Source: Pseudomonadota bacterium
Lineage (GTDB): Bacteria > Pseudomonadota > Gammaproteobacteria > Burkholderiales > Ferrovaceae
NCBI GenBank assembly: GCA_021826025.1
Contig: JAKBBG010000013.1
Coordinates: forward strand, 1 to 32,882
DNA: 32,882 bases
Reading direction: 5' to 3'
In this document: positions 3,839 through 21,841 of the stretch, piece after piece
How positions within the stretch are numbered: position 1 is the first letter of the stretch
How the letters are laid out: each line of letters opens with the position of its first letter
The notes under the pieces: generated by a model
Told to the model about the DNA's origin: nothing
The model's input: only the letters and a program-made list of their open reading frames with translations
Databases searched by the model: none
Program-made: the position numbers and the translations under genes

Positions 3839-3865
3839 TTATCGGAAGCGCCTTGGGAAACTTTA
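3839..3865 (-). promoter_or_regulatory. Sigma-28 (FliA) promoter of flagellin
   Basis: On the minus strand: TAAAGTTT (3865-3858), 11-nt spacer, TCCGATAA (3846-3839). The sigma-28 consensus is TAAAGTTT-N11-GCCGATAA, so only one position differs. Transcription should begin near 3832, giving a leader of about 90 nt before the flagellin ATG. Confidence 0.93.
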
Positions 3866-3911: not shown

Positions 3912-5636
3912 CTAGTCCGCCTTCACCACGCGGTTTTTTCCCGCATCCTTGGCCTGGTACATGGCCTGGTCCGCCCGCGAGATGACATCCTCCACGGGTT
4001 CGCCGGCCGCGCGGGACGCGACGCCGGCGCTGAACGTGATCACCAGACGTTCCCCGTTGTATTCGAAAAGCTTTTTGGTCAGAAGCCGCTGCAGGCGGCC
4101 GATGATGTCGGTGGCTTCGCCGGCCCCGCTGCCCGGCAGGACCACCAGGAATTCCTCGCCGCCGTAGCGCGCCACGGAATCGGACGGGCGCAGGGCCTCC
4201 CTGATCACTTCCGACACGTGCATCAGCGCCCGGTCTCCCGCCTGGTGTCCCAGCGTGTCGTTGAGCAGCTTGAAATTGTCGATGTCGATGAGCGCCACGC
4301 TCAGGGATTCCTGGCTGCGGTCCGACCGCGCCGTTTCCCGCTCCAGCATTTCGTCCAGCCCGCGCCGGTTGAGGGTGCCTGTGAGCTGGTCTTCCCGCAC
4401 CAGTTCGCTCACCTGCTCCAGTTCCTGCTCCAGTTGCCGGATGCGGTGTTCCGCTTCGTCGGCCTGGCGTCGCGCTTCCACCAGCTCCTCATGGGAGCGC
4501 AGGGCGCTTGCCTGGATCACGCGCGTGTCCTGCATGATGTCTTCCAGGATATGGCCCAGTTCGGTGAGGTTGTCCGCCTGGCCGATTTTCTGGTTGTAGG
4601 CTTCCATTTTGGCGTGGTATTCGCCGGTGCTTTCCGTCAGCTCGCCCATGCGGTCGATGAACGAGGTCATGAGGCTCTTGAGCGTCGCCTTGGCGTCCGC
4701 CAGGCTTTTCTTGAGCGTGCTCTGCTTGATGAGCGCATCGCGCAGGTTGCGTTCCGCGTCGGTGATGCTGCGCTTGTCGAGCGGCCGGGCAATGATTTCC
4801 TGCAGCACCACGATCTGCCCGCGCAGCCATTTGTCGTCGGCCACCAGTTCGCCCACGTTTTCCACCAGCAGGCGCAGCAGGCGCAGCAGCCCTTCCTGGA
4901 TTTTGGCCTTGTCCCCGCCGCGCAATTCCAGCTTCACCCAGAAATGGCGCAGCTTCTTCGCCAGTTCCATGAGCTGCCCCTGGTCGTTCACGGCGCGCAC
5001 CTGCCGGGCCAGATCCCGCACTTCTTCGGCGAGTTCCGGTTGCAGCGTCATGCCGCTTTCCAGGCTCTGGGCCAGCAATTCCTTCAGATGGCCGGTGATT
5101 TCGTGAGCGAGCGGGGCGGCGCTTGCCGGCGCGGCGGCAGCCGGCACGGCAGCGGGTACCGCGGAAGGCGCAGCCCCTTCCGGCGCAGCCGCGACGGGTG
5201 GCATCTTGCCCAGTTCCGGCTCCCGGTTTGCCGCGCCGCTCTCGGCTGCGGGAGGTGTTGCGGGCACCGTGCCTCCGGCACTGGACCAGGAGCGCAGCAA
5301 GCCGTGCAGTTTCTCGTAGAGCACGTCGGGGTTGGCTGAAAACTTGCTGAGCACCGTATCCAGGCCGTCCTTTTTGCGCGAAAGGGTGATGCCTTTGTGA
5401 TGGGCTTCGAGCTGGCGCAGCAGATCCCGGATCAGTCCCGACCAGGCCGGCACGGGGCGCGCCGGCGCAGCCGCCTCCTGCGGCTGTCTGCCGCCGCCTT
5501 CGGAAGGTTCCGGAGGTTTGCCGCTGACTTCGGCATAAATGCGTGCGTAATTTTCCGGTGTCGGCGCGAGTTTCCGGGAAACCAGGGTTTTCAGGGTCTT
5601 GCTTGCGATTTCTGCGGGGCTGCTGGGGGATGCCAT
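3912..5636 (-). CDS. GGDEF diguanylate cyclase with long helical N-terminal region
   Basis: 574 residues; predicted to make cyclic di-GMP from two GTP. The GGDEF domain spans about residues 416-574: DQLTGTLNRRGLDEM, ALIDIDNFKLLNDTLGH (metal and GTP-binding part), active-site GGEEF at 492-496, and an intact product-inhibition I-site RPSD at 483-486, five residues before GGEEF. The rest has no transmembrane segment: residues 1-115 are helical (starting near SKTLKTLVSRKLAPTPENYA), 120-175 form an Ala/Pro linker, and 180-410 are long helices ending in a coiled coil directly before the GGDEF domain. The protein is probably cytosolic and dimerises through that coil. It is the last gene of a unit with a ParA-like ATPase and a membrane-anchored coiled-coil protein (20-bp gap). 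Activity and target are not known. Confidence 0.9.
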   Translation of the reverse strand: MASPSSPAEIASKTLKTLVSRKLAPTPENYARIYAEVSGKPPEPSEGGGRQPQEAAAPARPVPAWSGLIRDLLRQLEAHHKGITLSRKKDGLDTVLSKFSANPDVLYEKLHGLLRSWSSAGGTVPATPPAAESGAANREPELGKMPPVAAAPEGAAPSAVPAAVPAAAAPASAAPLAHEITGHLKELLAQSLESGMTLQPELAEEVRDLARQVRAVNDQGQLMELAKKLRHFWVKLELRGGDKAKIQEGLLRLLRLLVENVGELVADDKWLRGQIVVLQEIIARPLDKRSITDAERNLRDALIKQSTLKKSLADAKATLKSLMTSFIDRMGELTESTGEYHAKMEAYNQKIGQADNLTELGHILEDIMQDTRVIQASALRSHEELVEARRQADEAEHRIRQLEQELEQVSELVREDQLTGTLNRRGLDEMLERETARSDRSQESLSVALIDIDNFKLLNDTLGHQAGDRALMHVSEVIREALRPSDSVARYGGEEFLVVLPGSGAGEATDIIGRLQRLLTKKLFEYNGERLVITFSAGVASRAAGEPVEDVISRADQAMYQAKDAGKNRVVKAD

Positions 5637-5656
5637 GCGATTTTTCAGGATAACGG

Positions 5657-6394
5657 TTACGGGAACAGGTAAAGTTTCAACGGGTGCAGCCAGGTCTGCC
5701 CTTGCCAGGCCAGGCCGGCGCCCATGCCGGCCCAGGTGAGCGCGAGCAGGATTGACAGTGCCCGAACCCTGCGGCGGCTGCGGCGCACGGTCACCTGCAT
5801 TTCCAGCAAGTCCACGGTTTCCTGGGCGGCCTGCAGGGCTTGCCGCTGACTTGCCGCCAGCGCCTGCTCGAGCGCCTCCTGCTGCTGGAATTTCTGAACC
5901 AGGTCGGCCTGGACCGCCCTGCGCGCCGCCGTGGCTTCCTGGGCGCGGGTTTCCGCTTCGCCCCGCTGCCGGGCGAGCACCGTGGCCCGGACCTCCTCGT
6001 CGATGCGCTCGCGCGCCGCCTTCAAGGCCGCCTCCAGGGCGAGCCGGCGTTCCTCGGCGGCTTCCAGGGCGCGCACTTCCAGCAGTATGCGCTCATTGTC
6101 CGTTTCGATGGCTCGCAATTCCGCTTCCATTCGGCGCTCCACCGCCGCGATGGCCTGATTTTCGGCCCGCAGACGCTCCTGCTCCAGGCGTTGCAGGTCC
6201 ATCTCCCGGGACTGCAGCAGCTCGCCGGGCGATACGGACCGCAGCTGGGCCTCGGCACGCTGCCGCGCCTGCTCTGCAAGCTGCGCTTCCGTTTCGGCCT
6301 CGATGCGGGCGCGCGCCTGCCGGATGTTTTCCACGGCATCGGGATAGTCTTCGGCCAATGCGTTGAATCGATACACCGAACCTTGAGCAGACAT
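5657..6394 (-). CDS. Coiled-coil protein with C-terminal membrane anchor, unknown function
   Basis: 245 residues, not recognised as a named family. Residues 1-20 look non-helical (MSAQGSVYRFNALAEDY); residues about 20-205 are an almost unbroken Glu/Ala/Arg/Gln-rich coiled coil (for example MDLQRLEQERLRAENQAIAA). A basic patch (RRSRRRVR) is followed by one hydrophobic segment (ALSILLALTWAGMGAGLAW, about 213-231) and a short tail ending in KLYLFP. It is thus likely an inner-membrane protein with a long cytoplasmic rod. The start at 6394 has GGGGAGG five bases upstream; an in-frame start at 6421 would overlap parA. It lies 23 bp after the ParA-like gene and 20 bp before the diguanylate cyclase, so a shared role is likely. 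The role itself is inference: it could be a scaffold or membrane landmark. Confidence 0.8.
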   Translation of the reverse strand: MSAQGSVYRFNALAEDYPDAVENIRQARARIEAETEAQLAEQARQRAEAQLRSVSPGELLQSREMDLQRLEQERLRAENQAIAAVERRMEAELRAIETDNERILLEVRALEAAEERRLALEAALKAARERIDEEVRATVLARQRGEAETRAQEATAARRAVQADLVQKFQQQEALEQALAASQRQALQAAQETVDLLEMQVTVRRSRRRVRALSILLALTWAGMGAGLAWQGQTWLHPLKLYLFP

Positions 6395-6417
6395 GGTGCC
6401 TCCCCGCTGGGTTAAAT

Positions 6418-7197
6418 TCACTGGGCCGAACCGGCCTCAAAAAAACCGCTCTCCAGGAGCTCGTGCGCGAGCGCGGCGTAATCGGCCGCCCCCGCGCTCT
6501 GTGCGGCGTAGCTGAACACGTCCTGGCCGTGCATGGGGCTCGTGGCGAGCGCCGCGTTTTCGCAAATGCGGGTATTGCATACCCGCGTCCCGTAACGCTC
6601 CTTCAGCTGCTGGTAAATTTCGTAAGACAGCTTGCGGCGGGGATCGAATCGGGTCACCACGATGCGCTGCCGGTAAATCCGGCCAAGTTTCTTTTCCAGC
6701 ACGCGCAACGCCCCGTCAAGCTTGTGCACCCCTTCCAGCGACAGGTAGTCGGCCGAGACCGGGATCAGCACCCGGTCGGCAGCCAGCAGCGCATTGAGCG
6801 TCAGAACCCCCAGCATCGGACAGCAATCGATCAGGATGGGAGCCCCGCGCGCCGTAAGGTCCGGATCGAGCCCCTGCCGCAGCAGGGTGGCTGCCCTGGC
6901 GTCGCTGCCGTAAAGGGCGTCCACTTTGGAAAGCTCCAGGGAAGAAGGCACGATTTTCCAGCCGGCAGGCGCGTCCCGCAGCAGCTGCGACAGCGGCGTC
7001 TTGTCCTTGAAAAAGGCCACCATGCCTGTGCCCAGCGCCCCGTCGCGGATGCGGCAGGCCAGGCTCAAATGGGCCTGCGGGTCGAGGTCCAGGGCGATGG
7101 GCGGGCGTTTTTCACGGGCAAGGGCCGATGCCAGATTAAGACAGGTCGTGGTCTTGCCGACCCCTCCCTTCTGGTTGAATACCGCAATGACCGCCAT
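6418..7197 (-). CDS. ParA/MinD-type ATPase
   Basis: 259 residues; a Walker-type cytoskeletal ATPase of the kind that positions DNA, chemoreceptor arrays or other cargo. A deviant Walker A is intact at residues 10-17 (KGGVGKTT), the A' motif is LDLDPQAHLS, and the Walker B region reads ILIDCCPMLG, where most ParA proteins have D(C/T)PP. No N-terminal DNA-binding helix-turn-helix is visible, which places it with short, orphan ParA-like proteins and not with plasmid ParA carrying a DNA-binding domain. No parB follows; the next genes encode a membrane-anchored coiled coil and a diguanylate cyclase. Cargo positioning at the pole is a reasonable idea given the flagellar setting but is not shown. 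It is transcribed away from flgM across a ~220-bp gap. Confidence 0.92.
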   Translation of the reverse strand: MAVIAVFNQKGGVGKTTTCLNLASALAREKRPPIALDLDPQAHLSLACRIRDGALGTGMVAFFKDKTPLSQLLRDAPAGWKIVPSSLELSKVDALYGSDARAATLLRQGLDPDLTARGAPILIDCCPMLGVLTLNALLAADRVLIPVSADYLSLEGVHKLDGALRVLEKKLGRIYRQRIVVTRFDPRRKLSYEIYQQLKERYGTRVCNTRICENAALATSPMHGQDVFSYAAQSAGAADYAALAHELLESGFFEAGSAQ

Positions 7198-7358
7198 GCC
7201 GGAATGCCTTCATCCTGTGAAAACTGTCAATCCAGCCCCATTATGTCAAACGGGGGGAGCCGGCAATCTCATGAAATGAAGGGGTTTTCCCCGCTTTTGC
7301 CCGCTCAAAAATGCATGCGGCGGGGAAAATTGGGCGTACAATTAATTTCGGATCACCC

Positions 7359-7385
7359 TAAAGTTTTGATGGAAGCTGCCGAAAC
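7359..7385 (+). promoter_or_regulatory. Sigma-28 promoter of flgMN
   Basis: TAAAGTTT (7359-7366), 11-nt spacer, GCCGAAAC (7378-7385). The -35 matches the consensus fully; the -10 differs at two positions. Transcription should start about 25 nt before the flgM GTG codon. Confidence 0.88.
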
Positions 7386-10483: not shown

Positions 10484-11317
10484 CTACCACGAGAGGGGGT
10501 CGGCGGGGCGTCGCCCGAGCTGCAGCGAACCCATCAAGACCTGCCCCAGCCTGCGGATGGCCACTGAAGCCGGCACATCGGCAACGGCCGCCGGTGCGTC
10601 AAAACGTAATTGTGTCGCACGACGGATGGGTTCATCAACTGGGAGGGTTCCCAGCCATTCCAGGGAAAGGGCGAGGTGGTCGCGGGCCACGCGTGCCAGG
10701 TTCCCGAACACCCATTCGGCGTCCGACGGGTCGCTCACCCGGTCCATGACGATTCCGAAGCGGGTCAGGCCGTCCTCCTGGTGCAGGCGTTTGATCAGGG
10801 CATAGCCTGCCTTGAGGCCGGCGGCCGTGCAGTCCATGACCAGCACCACGGTGAACGACTCCCCGTCCCCCGGCCTCGGCGCTCCTGCCTGGTTCGCAGC
10901 GTCCACCAGGATCACCTCGGCCGAATGGATGATCCGGTCGAAAAGCCCTGCCAGGGCGCTGCGCTCTTCCCGCCCCAGCCTTGGGAAGTCGCGCAGGATC
11001 CGGGCCATGGGCAGCACGCGCAGCCCCGGGGCAGCTTCCAGCATCACGTCCGCAAGGGACTTGTCGCCCCGCAGGACATGCAGCAGGTCCAGCCGGGGCT
11101 TCATGGACAGGCGATGGGCCACGGTGTCGTGGGACAGGTTTTCGTCCAGGACCAGCACATCGCATCCCTGCCGGGACAGATCGGCCGCAAGCCCGGTGAC
11201 GAGAGCGGACGTCACGCTGCCGGGCTGCGTCCCGGAAAACGCCCATATGGGCGCCGCGGGCCGCACCAGCAGCCGGCGCAAACCGGAAGCCTGGTCGGCG
11301 CCTTGCTCAGCCTGCAT
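10484..11317 (-). CDS. flhG: FlhG/FleN-like MinD-family protein with degenerate P-loop
   Basis: 277 residues. FlhG normally is an ATPase that limits flagellar number and stimulates the FlhF GTPase. The start at 11317 places the FlhF-activating motif DQAxxLR at residues 8-14 (DQASGLR), where it belongs. However, the P-loop region reads AFSGTQPGSVTSAL; family members have SGKGGVGKT, so both lysines are gone. The later parts are still MinD-like: VLVLDENLSHDTVAHRL, LRGDKSLADVML, and a Walker B-like VILVDAANQAG. ATP binding is therefore doubtful, while FlhF activation could remain. It overlaps the flhF end by 11 bases and is followed by fliA. The gene name rests on context and the remaining motifs. 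Confidence 0.85.
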   Translation of the reverse strand: MQAEQGADQASGLRRLLVRPAAPIWAFSGTQPGSVTSALVTGLAADLSRQGCDVLVLDENLSHDTVAHRLSMKPRLDLLHVLRGDKSLADVMLEAAPGLRVLPMARILRDFPRLGREERSALAGLFDRIIHSAEVILVDAANQAGAPRPGDGESFTVVLVMDCTAAGLKAGYALIKRLHQEDGLTRFGIVMDRVSDPSDAEWVFGNLARVARDHLALSLEWLGTLPVDEPIRRATQLRFDAPAAVADVPASVAIRRLGQVLMGSLQLGRRPADPLSW

Positions 11318-12413
11318 GGGCTGCCAGGGCCCCCTGGGGGAATTCGAGCGCATCGTGGGCCGCATGGGCGGTCGTATCCAGGCTGTCGAACGTGCAGCGC
11401 AGCAGATACGGGATGCTCACTTCGTGAAGGTCTTCCGGGACGCGTTGGCCGTTGGCAATGAAGTGCATCACCAGCTTATGCCGGATCACCACATCCAAAA
11501 CCCCGCCCAGGGATACGGATTCATCCAGTTTCGTGGGAATGCATCCGGCGACTCCCGGGCTGCGGTAAACCCGGACCACGTCTTCCAGAGTGCGCAGGTT
11601 GCTGGTGGCATTGAGCAGCAGAAGCCGTCGCACCCCGCAGGCGTCCAGCATGGCCGCCTGATCCATGACGCGGCTGTCGCGCTGGCCCATGCCCATGGTA
11701 TCGATCAGCACCAGGTGCTTTTGTTTGAGGGCGGATAGCGTCAACTGAAGGTCGGCTGCATCGCGCACGCTGTGCACCGAGACGCCCAGGATTTTTCCAT
11801 AGATGCGCAGTTGCTCGAAGGCACCGACGCGGTAACTGTCCGTGCTCACCAGCGCCACCCGCTCGGGCCCGAAACGAACCACGGCGCGCGCAGCGAGCTT
11901 GGCCGTGGTGGTCGTTTTGCCGACCCCGGTGGGTCCCACCAGGGCGTAAACGCCCCCGTTCTGCACGATTTCCTCGTCTCCGGCGCGGTAGCGCAAATTT
12001 CGCTCGAGCACTTTCAACACCCAGTCCAGGCCCGCGTTTTCCGGCATGCGTTCCAGCATCTGTTCCGCCAGGGCCTGACCGAAACCCGCTTTCATCAGGC
12101 TGCGCTGAATACGCACTGCAGAGGCCCCACCCGTATTTGCGCCGGGCTTGGCCAGCGCCGAGAGCCGGTCCAGAAGCTGGTCGTGCAGGGCGCGGAGTTC
12201 ACCCATCATGCCGTGCGATTGCCCCGCAGGCTGCGATGGGGCTGCCGGCAGCGATTGCCCCATCTTCTTGAGCAACGCCGGGTGGGCCGCCACGATTTCC
12301 ACCTGCTCGCCCGCCTTGCGGTTGGACAGAATGACGGCATCTTCCCCAAGTTCAGCCCGCACTTGCCGCAGCACTTCCCTTGAATTGGCCCCCAGAAACG
12401 TCTTCATGCTCAT
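11307..12413 (-). CDS. flhF: Flagellar placement GTPase FlhF (SRP family)
   Basis: 368 residues. FlhF marks the site, usually the cell pole, where the flagellum is built. Residues 1-50 form the basic B domain (MKTFLGANSREVLRQVRAEL). The N and G domains follow: G1 GPTGVGKTTTTAKLAAR at about 160-176, STDSYRVGAFEQLRIYGKIL (SRP-type insertion), G3-like DTMGMGQRD at 238-246 (most relatives have DTAGM), and G4 TKLDES. The ATG overlaps the flhA stop by 4 bases (ATGA), so translation is coupled. Together with flhG it suggests polar flagella, even though the cell uses FlhDC as regulator. Confidence 0.95.
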   Translation of the reverse strand: MSMKTFLGANSREVLRQVRAELGEDAVILSNRKAGEQVEIVAAHPALLKKMGQSLPAAPSQPAGQSHGMMGELRALHDQLLDRLSALAKPGANTGGASAVRIQRSLMKAGFGQALAEQMLERMPENAGLDWVLKVLERNLRYRAGDEEIVQNGGVYALVGPTGVGKTTTTAKLAARAVVRFGPERVALVSTDSYRVGAFEQLRIYGKILGVSVHSVRDAADLQLTLSALKQKHLVLIDTMGMGQRDSRVMDQAAMLDACGVRRLLLLNATSNLRTLEDVVRVYRSPGVAGCIPTKLDESVSLGGVLDVVIRHKLVMHFIANGQRVPEDLHEVSIPYLLRCTFDSLDTTAHAAHDALEFPQGALAAHAG

Positions 12414-19906: not shown

Positions 19907-20851
19907 ATGTCTGATCTGCTTTCGAAAGTTGATGCCAGGACCAAGCTCGCCGGGACCAACAAGCTCGAAATCCTCATGTTCACCCTCGGGCAGGACCAGC
20001 GCACCAGTCGCCGGGAAACGTTCGGGATCAATGTCTTTAAAGTCAGGGAAGTGCTGCGGGTCCCCCCCATCACCCAGGCGCCGGACATGCCCCCCGCCGT
20101 GGAAGGGATGGTCAGCCTGCGCGGCGTGCTGGTCCCGATCATCGATCTGGCCAAGTATGCCGGCGTGGATGTATCGGCCCGCCCCGAAATCATGATCGTG
20201 ACCGAATACAACGGTCATACCCAAGGATTTCTGGTGGAATCGGTTGACACCATTCTCCGGCTCGACTGGTCTTCCATGAAAGTACCCCCCGACATGATGA
20301 ACGCCAACATGGGAGGCCTCGTCACTGCCGTGACAGAACTGGCTGACGGCCGCCTGGTCATGATGCTGGATGTGGAAAAAGTCCTGGCAGAGACCGCCAG
20401 CGTCGGCGACGACGACATGATTTACAAGAACGTGCTGCCGCTCGGACTGGCCAATCGCCGCGTATTTTTCGCGGACGACTCGGCCGTGGCAAGACGCCAG
20501 ATCGAACGCACGCTGGAAGCCATGGAAGTCAAAGGCATTTCTGCGGTCAATGGCCGCCAGGCCTGGCAGGAGCTCCAGAAGATGGCCGAATACGCAGACT
20601 CCGCCCACGTTCCCCTCAAGGAACTCATCCAGGTGATCCTGACGGACGTGGAAATGCCGGAAATGGACGGGTACATGCTGACGCGCAAGATCAAGGAAGA
20701 CAAGCGTTTCGCCAACATTCCGGTGGTCATGCATTCCTCCCTCTCCGGAAGTTCGAATCACCAGCTTGGAAAAACCGTCGGCGTGGATGAGTACGTGTCA
20801 AAGTTTGAACCCAATCGTCTGGCGCAGACGCTGGCACGACTTCTGAAGTAA
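19907..20851 (+). CDS. cheV: Chemotaxis coupling protein CheV (first copy)
   Basis: 314 residues: a CheW-like domain (about 10-165) fused to a response-regulator receiver (about 180-314). CheV links receptors to CheA, and phosphorylation of its receiver tunes adaptation. The CheW part has [14 protein letters not shown] and GMVSLRGVLVPIIDLAKYAG; the receiver has the acidic pocket FFADDSAVARR, the phospho-acceptor in [13 protein letters not shown] and the late lysine in YVSKFEPN. GGAG lies upstream of the ATG. It is followed after 9 bp by a second cheV, with a near-identical start (VDARTKLAGTNKLEIL versus [16 protein letters not shown]), indicating an old tandem duplication. Confidence 0.95.
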   Translation: MSDLLSKVDARTKLAGTNKLEILMFTLGQDQRTSRRETFGINVFKVREVLRVPPITQAPDMPPAVEGMVSLRGVLVPIIDLAKYAGVDVSARPEIMIVTEYNGHTQGFLVESVDTILRLDWSSMKVPPDMMNANMGGLVTAVTELADGRLVMMLDVEKVLAETASVGDDDMIYKNVLPLGLANRRVFFADDSAVARRQIERTLEAMEVKGISAVNGRQAWQELQKMAEYADSAHVPLKELIQVILTDVEMPEMDGYMLTRKIKEDKRFANIPVVMHSSLSGSSNHQLGKTVGVDEYVSKFEPNRLAQTLARLLK

Positions 20852-20860
20852 TCGGGGCCC

Positions 20861-21841
20861 ATGATGAATCATTCGGAAAACGTCGCTTTCAACCTTCAGT
20901 TCCCGCTGGAAAGCGAAGCCAAAGGACTGCTGGAATCCGTTGACGCACGGACCAACCTGGCGGGTTCCAACAAGATGGAAATCCTCCTGTTTTCCCTGGG
21001 CACGCAAGAGCATTTCGGCATCAACGTCTTCAAGGTCCGTGAAGTGACCAACGCCATGAAAGTCACGCGCACCCCCAACATGCCTGCGGGGGTGGCGGGC
21101 ATCGTGAGCCTGCGCGGCCACATCATCCCGGTCCTGGACCTGGCAAGCTACATGAAACTCGAAAATGCGCGCGAACACGAACGGACCACGATGATGGTGA
21201 CCGAGTACAGCCGTCACACCCTGGGGTTCCTGGTGGGCGGAGTCAATCGCATCATTCGCGTGGACTGGGACAAGGTGCATGCCCCCGAGAACGCCATGGG
21301 CAGCAACAGCAACCTGATCAACGCCATCACCGAACTCCCCAACGGCGACCTGGTTTCGATCGTGGACGTGGAACAGGTGCTGGCCAACGCCTTCGGCGAG
21401 GATGTGGTCGGTGCCGTGGCCAAGATTGAAAGAGGGCATGAATTGTGCGTCTTTTTCGTGGATGACTCGTCCGTCGCGCGAAAGACAATAGCCGAGTTAC
21501 TGGACAAGATGGGAGTCAAGCACCTGCGCGCCAACAACGGGAGGGAAGCCTGGGAACGGCTTCAGGGCCTGGCCGACAGCTCCGCCCAAAGCGGAACGCC
21601 CCTGCACGACCAGATCCAGGTGATACTGGTGGATGCTGAAATGCCGGAAATGGACGGTTACGTGCTGACCCAGCATATCAAGGCGGACCAGCGTTTCGAT
21701 GGCATCCCCGTGGTGATGCATTCGTCACTGTCCTCCCAGGCCAACCGGGCCATGGGCAGCCGGGTCGGAGTGGACCATTACGTCGCCAAATTCGACGCCG
21801 CCATGTTGTCGGAAACCCTGCGGCCGTTGCTGGCATCATAG
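20861..21841 (+). CDS. cheV: Chemotaxis coupling protein CheV (second copy)
   Basis: 326 residues with the same CheW plus receiver layout as the preceding gene. The CheW domain has [20 protein letters not shown] and [19 protein letters not shown]; the receiver has [27 protein letters not shown] and YVAKFDAAM, so the phosphorylation site is intact. It has an N-terminal extension of about 20 residues relative to the first copy and lacks a short insert after the first beta strands. Both copies keep all key residues, so neither looks decayed; they may couple different receptor sets. The start is either of two adjacent ATG codons. cheY follows after 20 bp. Confidence 0.95.

Follow-up and report, generated by a model that had tools for sequence, protein, structure and literature searches.

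A ParA-family ATPase, a tail-anchored coiled-coil protein and a diguanylate cyclase as a candidate flagellum-dependent module in Ferrovaceae

Three adjacent genes in a flagellar locus of a member of the family Ferrovaceae, encoding a ParA-family ATPase (ParA), a coiled-coil protein (CC) and a GGDEF diguanylate cyclase (DGC), appear to form a flagellum-dependent joint module, a reading well supported by the co-occurrence of the genes with flagella and by a second clustering in the Gallionellaceae. The flagellum dependence was established, at the level of gene content, from the distribution across genomes: in 131 related genomes (Ferrovaceae and Gallionellaceae), parts of the trio are found almost only where flagella have been kept. 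Orphan ParA proteins abound, and the cargo is known for few of them. In the present analysis one of their clades (clade A) is tied to flagella, unlike a second clade used as internal control, and the neighbouring genes supply a candidate membrane partner and effector. No paper describing the trio was found in the open-licence literature.

Gene organization and genome setting

The window is the whole 32,882-bp stretch of contig JAKBBG010000013.1 that was analysed, from a 1.74 Mb genome of the family Ferrovaceae that is 92.7% complete. The host is an acid-loving, iron-oxidising bacterium. From homology and known flagellar loci we take the gene order to be fliD-flaG-fliC-[DGC-CC-ParA]-flgM-flgN-motD-motC-fliA-flhG-flhF-flhA-flhB-cheR, followed by flhDC-motAB-cheVVYZA. 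The three genes of the trio all lie on the minus strand between fliC and flgM, with intergenic gaps of 23 bp (ParA/CC) and 20 bp (CC/DGC). The features are as follows:

3839..3865, minus strand: sigma-28 promoter of fliC (consensus scan, 1 mismatch)
3912..5636, minus strand: DGC, 574 aa, with a conserved N-terminal helical module, a linker, a helical/coiled-coil middle and a GGDEF domain (Pfam GGDEF 1.5e-44; AF2; Foldseek)
3930..4391, minus strand: GGDEF domain with GGEEF active site and RxxD inhibition site (Pfam, alignment, sequence)
5657..6394, minus strand: tail-anchored coiled coil CC, 245 aa, homologous to a long coiled coil of Gallionellaceae (AF2 long helix; 17 homologues)
5705..5761, minus strand: C-terminal hydrophobic (membrane) segment of CC (hydropathy peak at the same position in 17/17 homologues)
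6418..7197, minus strand: ParA-family ATPase, 259 aa, clade A of beta-proteobacterial orphan ParA (Pfam AAA_31 1.2e-33; tree)
7144..7176, minus strand: deviant Walker A NQKGGVGKTTT (sequence; conserved in the ParA alignment)
7240..7266, minus strand: possible, weak vegetative promoter of the trio, sigma-70-like (TTGCCG, 15 nt, CATAAT; alignment)
7359..7385, plus strand: sigma-28 promoter of flgM (consensus scan, 2 mismatches)

The window contains five sigma-28 sites where 0.03 would be expected, and the scan of it revealed no sigma-28 promoter for the trio. Given the site at 3839..3865, fliC has its own promoter, separate from the DGC transcript, and the trio lies between the fliC and flgM promoters; coordinates and sigma-28 sites agree with the initial annotation of three closely spaced, same-strand genes at this position. 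The putative trio promoter at 7240..7266 was missed by the consensus scan, and its blocks are largely kept in an alignment of five genomes of the genus. Elsewhere in the window (19907-21841), two cheV-like genes are found in tandem ahead of cheY-cheZ-cheA, an arrangement also present in relatives.

The ParA-family ATPase

The Walker A motif of ParA (KGGVGKTT, residues 10-17) is intact, as first annotated, and together with the ParA fold it places the protein in the ParA/MinD superfamily (KGGxGK[ST]). The closest solved relatives are Soj/ParA chains, and ParA scored below the cut-off of every NCBIfam equivalog. ParA is not the ATPase of a chromosomal ParABS system: no parB lies beside it, again as initially described, its gene is not near gidAB/oriC, and the genome's own Soj sits between mnmG and a parB (G000:C29). 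Nor is it FlhG/FleN, since it lacks the N-terminal DQAxxLR module and does not occupy the flhF-flhG-fliA position; a separate FlhG with this module is encoded at 10484-11365. By gene neighbourhood it was likewise not assigned to ParC/PpfA, having CC and DGC as neighbours in all Ferrovaceae with ParA and no CheW-like ParP or TlpT partner. Outside the Ferrovaceae, ParA orthologues are usually solitary and mostly adjoin glmS/glmU or argS. On the sequences compared, ParA belongs to a distinct beta-proteobacterial clade and the parts of the trio are not a Ferrovaceae invention.

Two Arg residues serve DNA binding in ParA proteins (PMC7229837). At the corresponding sites, the Arg of TRFDPRRKLS is kept and doubled and that of RNVRLAEAP is replaced (CENAALATSP). 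Because one of the two is lost, it is uncertain whether ParA runs on the nucleoid, and it may use a different track.

The FlhG encoded in the window has lost its catalytic Walker A, with GTQPGSVTS in place of KGGVGKT. The idea that ParA substitutes for a degenerate FlhG was rejected: the full KGGxGK is missing from FlhG in all beta-proteobacterial loci read where FlhG could be located, with or without ParA, so that there is no correlation between FlhG decay, which varies in degree, and ParA.

The coiled-coil protein and its long homologue

The CC gene starts at an ATG preceded by a GGGGAGG Shine-Dalgarno sequence. AlphaFold2 modelled the protein as a 34-residue helix, a break and one 175-residue helix that includes the C-terminal hydrophobic segment (mean pLDDT 87), and a hydrophobic end was found in 17/17 homologues, both in keeping with the coiled coil and C-terminal membrane helix proposed earlier. 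The segment keeps its position although the sequences diverge, and is mostly preceded, among the 17 homologues, by an Arg-rich stretch; by the positive-inside rule, the coiled coil is therefore predicted to be cytoplasmic.

CC matched no Pfam or NCBIfam family, its protein identity falls to 34-40% among homologues, and single-sequence searches had suggested an orphan confined to the Ferrovaceae. This was overturned by the profile search that the initial annotation had called for, in which a profile built on the conserved portion of CC retrieved a coiled coil of 770-1140 aa (CC-long) from Gallionellaceae. Two collinear parts are common to both proteins, an N-terminal module spanning roughly residues 1-57 and a core (ELRAIEADNERI), each scoring ~1e-10 or better alone; most of the CC-long repeats between them score as noise. 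The N-terminal module is Arg-rich and is one of the two stretches best kept between CC and CC-long, and several CC-long copies also end in a hydrophobic segment. By the shared collinear module and core, CC is a short form of CC-long, or CC-long is an expanded form. The CC-long gene adjoins guaA/guaB in several genomes and gltX in one. Matches to CC-long were also seen in very large coiled-coil proteins, with open frames of 1700-2200 aa, in six Gallionellaceae genomes (G283, G285, G296, G314, G315 and G320).

The diguanylate cyclase

DGC has the motifs and fold of a diguanylate cyclase, with GGEEF at residues 492-496 and RxxD at 483-486; judged by sequence the catalytic motifs are intact, as had been noted at the outset for the active and inhibition sites. 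Foldseek matched the DGC model to SiaD, WspR and DgcB. The gene adjoins fliC, and in Gallionellaceae and Rhodocyclaceae the genes for a histidine kinase (HK) and a LuxR-type regulator mostly lie upstream of it; in Ferrovaceae, ParA-CC occupy the place held elsewhere by this kinase pair. In some other lineages DGC is located in the flgA-flgB gap (L097; gene names inferred from lengths and order). DGC is widespread in genomes lacking clade-A ParA, and its linkage to fliC is older than the trio and persists without ParA. Since the N-terminal helical module is present in genomes without a linked ParA, it is not a dedicated ParA contact.

Conservation within the Ferrovaceae

Thirty-two Ferrovaceae genomes were searched using FlhA as a proxy for flagella; draft genomes can miss genes. 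FlhA was found in 23 of these, 19 of them in genera g1, g2, g3, g6 and g8. ParA is directly followed by CC in 18 of the 19, the contig of the remaining genome (G025) stopping inside ParA, and DGC comes next in 17/17 genomes where the contig continues. As far as contigs reach, the order ParA-CC-DGC-fliC is invariant in Ferrovaceae with ParA, and its retention in 18 genomes indicates that the trio is more than chance. None of the three genes was found in the four flagellated g7 genomes, nor in the nine Ferrovaceae without FlhA. The flagellar locus of g7 (L181, L182, L183) is divergent, with flhA at 67-69% identity. A chance neighbourhood was rejected on the 18 conserved loci and the Gallionellaceae profile.

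Distribution with flagella in the Gallionellaceae

The Gallionellaceae sample consisted of 99 genomes at least 90% complete, 78 with FlhA and 21 without, and Fisher p values from it ignore relatedness. Clade-A ParA was present and intact in 71/78 FlhA-positive genomes versus 0/21 FlhA-negative ones; the counts for DGC were the same (71/78 versus 0/21), and those for CC-long were 58/78 versus 1/21. The sister ParA clade B, which served as a control in the same search, showed no such flagellar tie (40/78 and 10/21). The FlhA-negative genomes are spread over four genera, which points to several losses. Across the order, as counted from the searches and the tree, FlhA was present in 43/45 genomes with clade-A ParA versus 130/205 without.

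The genes for ParA, CC-long and DGC are mostly unlinked in Gallionellaceae, and pairwise ties within FlhA-positive genomes are weak when relatedness is ignored (CC-ParA, p 0.07; DGC-ParA, p 0.12). Genus g136 has ParA and DGC without CC, and CC is missing from some Gallionellaceae; together with the wide occurrence of DGC without ParA, the case of g136 indicates that no part strictly needs the others. The initial annotation had set beforehand that rare co-occurrence in related genomes would refute a joint system. The trio was instead found to be invariant in flagellated Ferrovaceae except g7, and its parts to track flagella in Gallionellaceae.

In the sole FlhA-negative genome with CC (G320), the ParA gene beside glmS is split by a stop and a frame change (L263:7824-8542), which is consistent with recent decay after flagellar loss or with an assembly error.

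A second clustering of ParA with the cyclase

In four Gallionellaceae genomes (G237, G304, G281 and G291; loci L189, L260, L261 and L262), ParA is separated by one or two gene positions from (HK-)RR-DGC, and fliC was also read beside DGC in L189, L261 and L262. In a fifth (G302, L259), CC-long is followed after ~90 bp by ParA, both are divergent from the same HK, and the contig ends there. The clustered ParA proteins of the five genomes form one clade (98/98) nested in Gallionellaceae, apart from Ferrovaceae (96/92); unlinked glmS-type Gallionellaceae relatives flank this clade, and one member, G290, is on a short, uninformative contig. The simplest reading of this nesting is that ParA moved to the DGC locus twice, independently.

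Elsewhere, GGDEF genes are enriched among the direct neighbours of the family's ParA genes, at 7/155 versus 18/1138 among the other genes of these loci (4.5% versus 1.6%; p 0.02, relatedness not removed), and these GGDEF genes are unrelated to the DGC of the trio. Flagellar genes beside ParA elsewhere in the order were few (L198, L220), about the chance level by estimate. A different ParA-cyclase operon was seen in genus g77 of another family, where a GGDEF-containing protein of ~790 aa is encoded 27-50 bp downstream of a clade-B ParA (L225:9776-12958, L226, L231). In G190 (L187:9989-11901), which has no flagellar DGC, the gene for another GGDEF protein (356 aa) starts 66 bp behind a clade-A ParA.

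Proposed mechanism and alternative explanations

The trio is a variant of the ParA/MinD positioning systems. The best explanation as a whole, to which we give an even chance of being correct, is a flagellum-dependent ParA module with CC as partner and the cyclase held nearby. CC would be a cytoplasmic rod whose C-terminal helix anchors it in the inner membrane, and would act as partner to a dedicated ParA, with its Arg-rich N-terminal module probably stimulating ATP hydrolysis; many partners of ParA/MinD ATPases trigger hydrolysis via a basic N-terminus (PMC7993993), and it is by analogy with these that CC is proposed as the ATPase partner. ParA and CC may then set the position of a flagellum-associated assembly, most likely at the flagellated pole, with DGC held in or near it via its helical N-terminal and middle regions, and a local cyclic-di-GMP source at the flagellum would result from this placement. 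The protein contacts, ATPase activation, polar placement and local signalling are steps of the model that we infer. It is plausible that the trio places the cyclase at the flagellated pole; a ParA that places the cyclase, and a ParA and CC that organise the flagellar pole where the cyclase joins, fit equally well. More tentatively, the trio could represent an undescribed class of flagellar-pole organiser, in which the ParA clade and a tail-anchored CC scaffold, short in Ferrovaceae and reaching ~1000 aa in Gallionellaceae, position a DGC and cyclic-di-GMP is made where motility is controlled. If true, beta-proteobacteria would have their own equivalent of the ParC and TipN circuits, and whether cyclic-di-GMP signals locally at the flagellum could be tested in iron-oxidising bacteria.

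It is conceivable, though rather unlikely, that ParA and CC act together as a polar landmark, or as a pair that positions the flagellum or a chemoreceptor array, in a TipN-like or ParC-like role, and that the DGC gene is simply co-regulated as a flagellar gene, its product making no direct contact. The DGC-fliC linkage, which predates ParA and persists without it, fits such a pair, as does the adjacency of CC-long and ParA in L259, and in Caulobacter the large membrane coiled coil TipN both binds ParA and recruits a flagellar c-di-GMP receptor (PMC9178275). Against this, ParA came beside the same DGC twice, and other ParA genes of the family adjoin other GGDEF genes.

We consider it improbable that these are three independent flagellar-regulon genes without a shared role, which chance or a need for co-expression has brought together. 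Although the locus also houses unrelated flagellar genes and g7 is flagellated without all three, ParA and CC follow flagella in Gallionellaceae even where unlinked, gene order is invariant in 18 genomes despite the low identity of CC, and CC-long once more adjoins ParA in one Gallionellaceae genome.

A BcsQ-like ParA, which would help to assemble a polar secretion or adhesion machine under cyclic-di-GMP control instead of moving cargo, is very unlikely, for although BcsQ (TIGR03371) is the top NCBIfam match of ParA and is itself polar and tied to cyclic-di-GMP (PMC9178275), the score of 102.4 bits is under the BcsQ cut-off of 157.85, ParA presence tracks flagella, and its immediate neighbours are flagellar.

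Comparison with known systems

In PomX/PomY/PomZ of Myxococcus and in McdA/McdB, as in the trio, a ParA-family ATPase is encoded with a coiled-coil or self-assembling partner, without ParB/parS. The candidate partner in the trio differs in being tail-anchored in the membrane and of no known family, and the trio is tied to flagella and a cyclase, where those systems serve division or carboxysomes. ParC/ParP of Vibrio and PpfA/TlpT of Rhodobacter resemble the trio in having a ParA-like ATPase that serves motility, in their case by positioning chemoreceptor arrays, and the ParC gene also sits in a chemotaxis/flagellar region; in contrast, the ParA of the trio has no CheW-like ParP or soluble receptor beside it, and its closest solved relatives are of the Soj type. 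Among cyclases, SiaD, WspR and DgcB share the coiled coil and GGDEF fold of DGC (Foldseek), but the N-terminal half of DGC differs and its score is under the SiaD family cut-off.

In the TipN-ParA-TipF circuit of Caulobacter, a large coiled coil anchored in the membrane makes contact with ParA and is linked to flagellum placement and to cyclic-di-GMP (PMC9178275). By its description it is set apart from the trio, since TipN is anchored N-terminally and uses the chromosomal ParA, and TipF is a receptor, not a cyclase. In RcbA/RcbB of Vibrio vulnificus, an operon partner keeps a cyclase at the flagellar pole (PMC12282931), much as proposed for the trio, whereas RcbA and RcbB are TPR proteins and their operon has no ParA-type ATPase.
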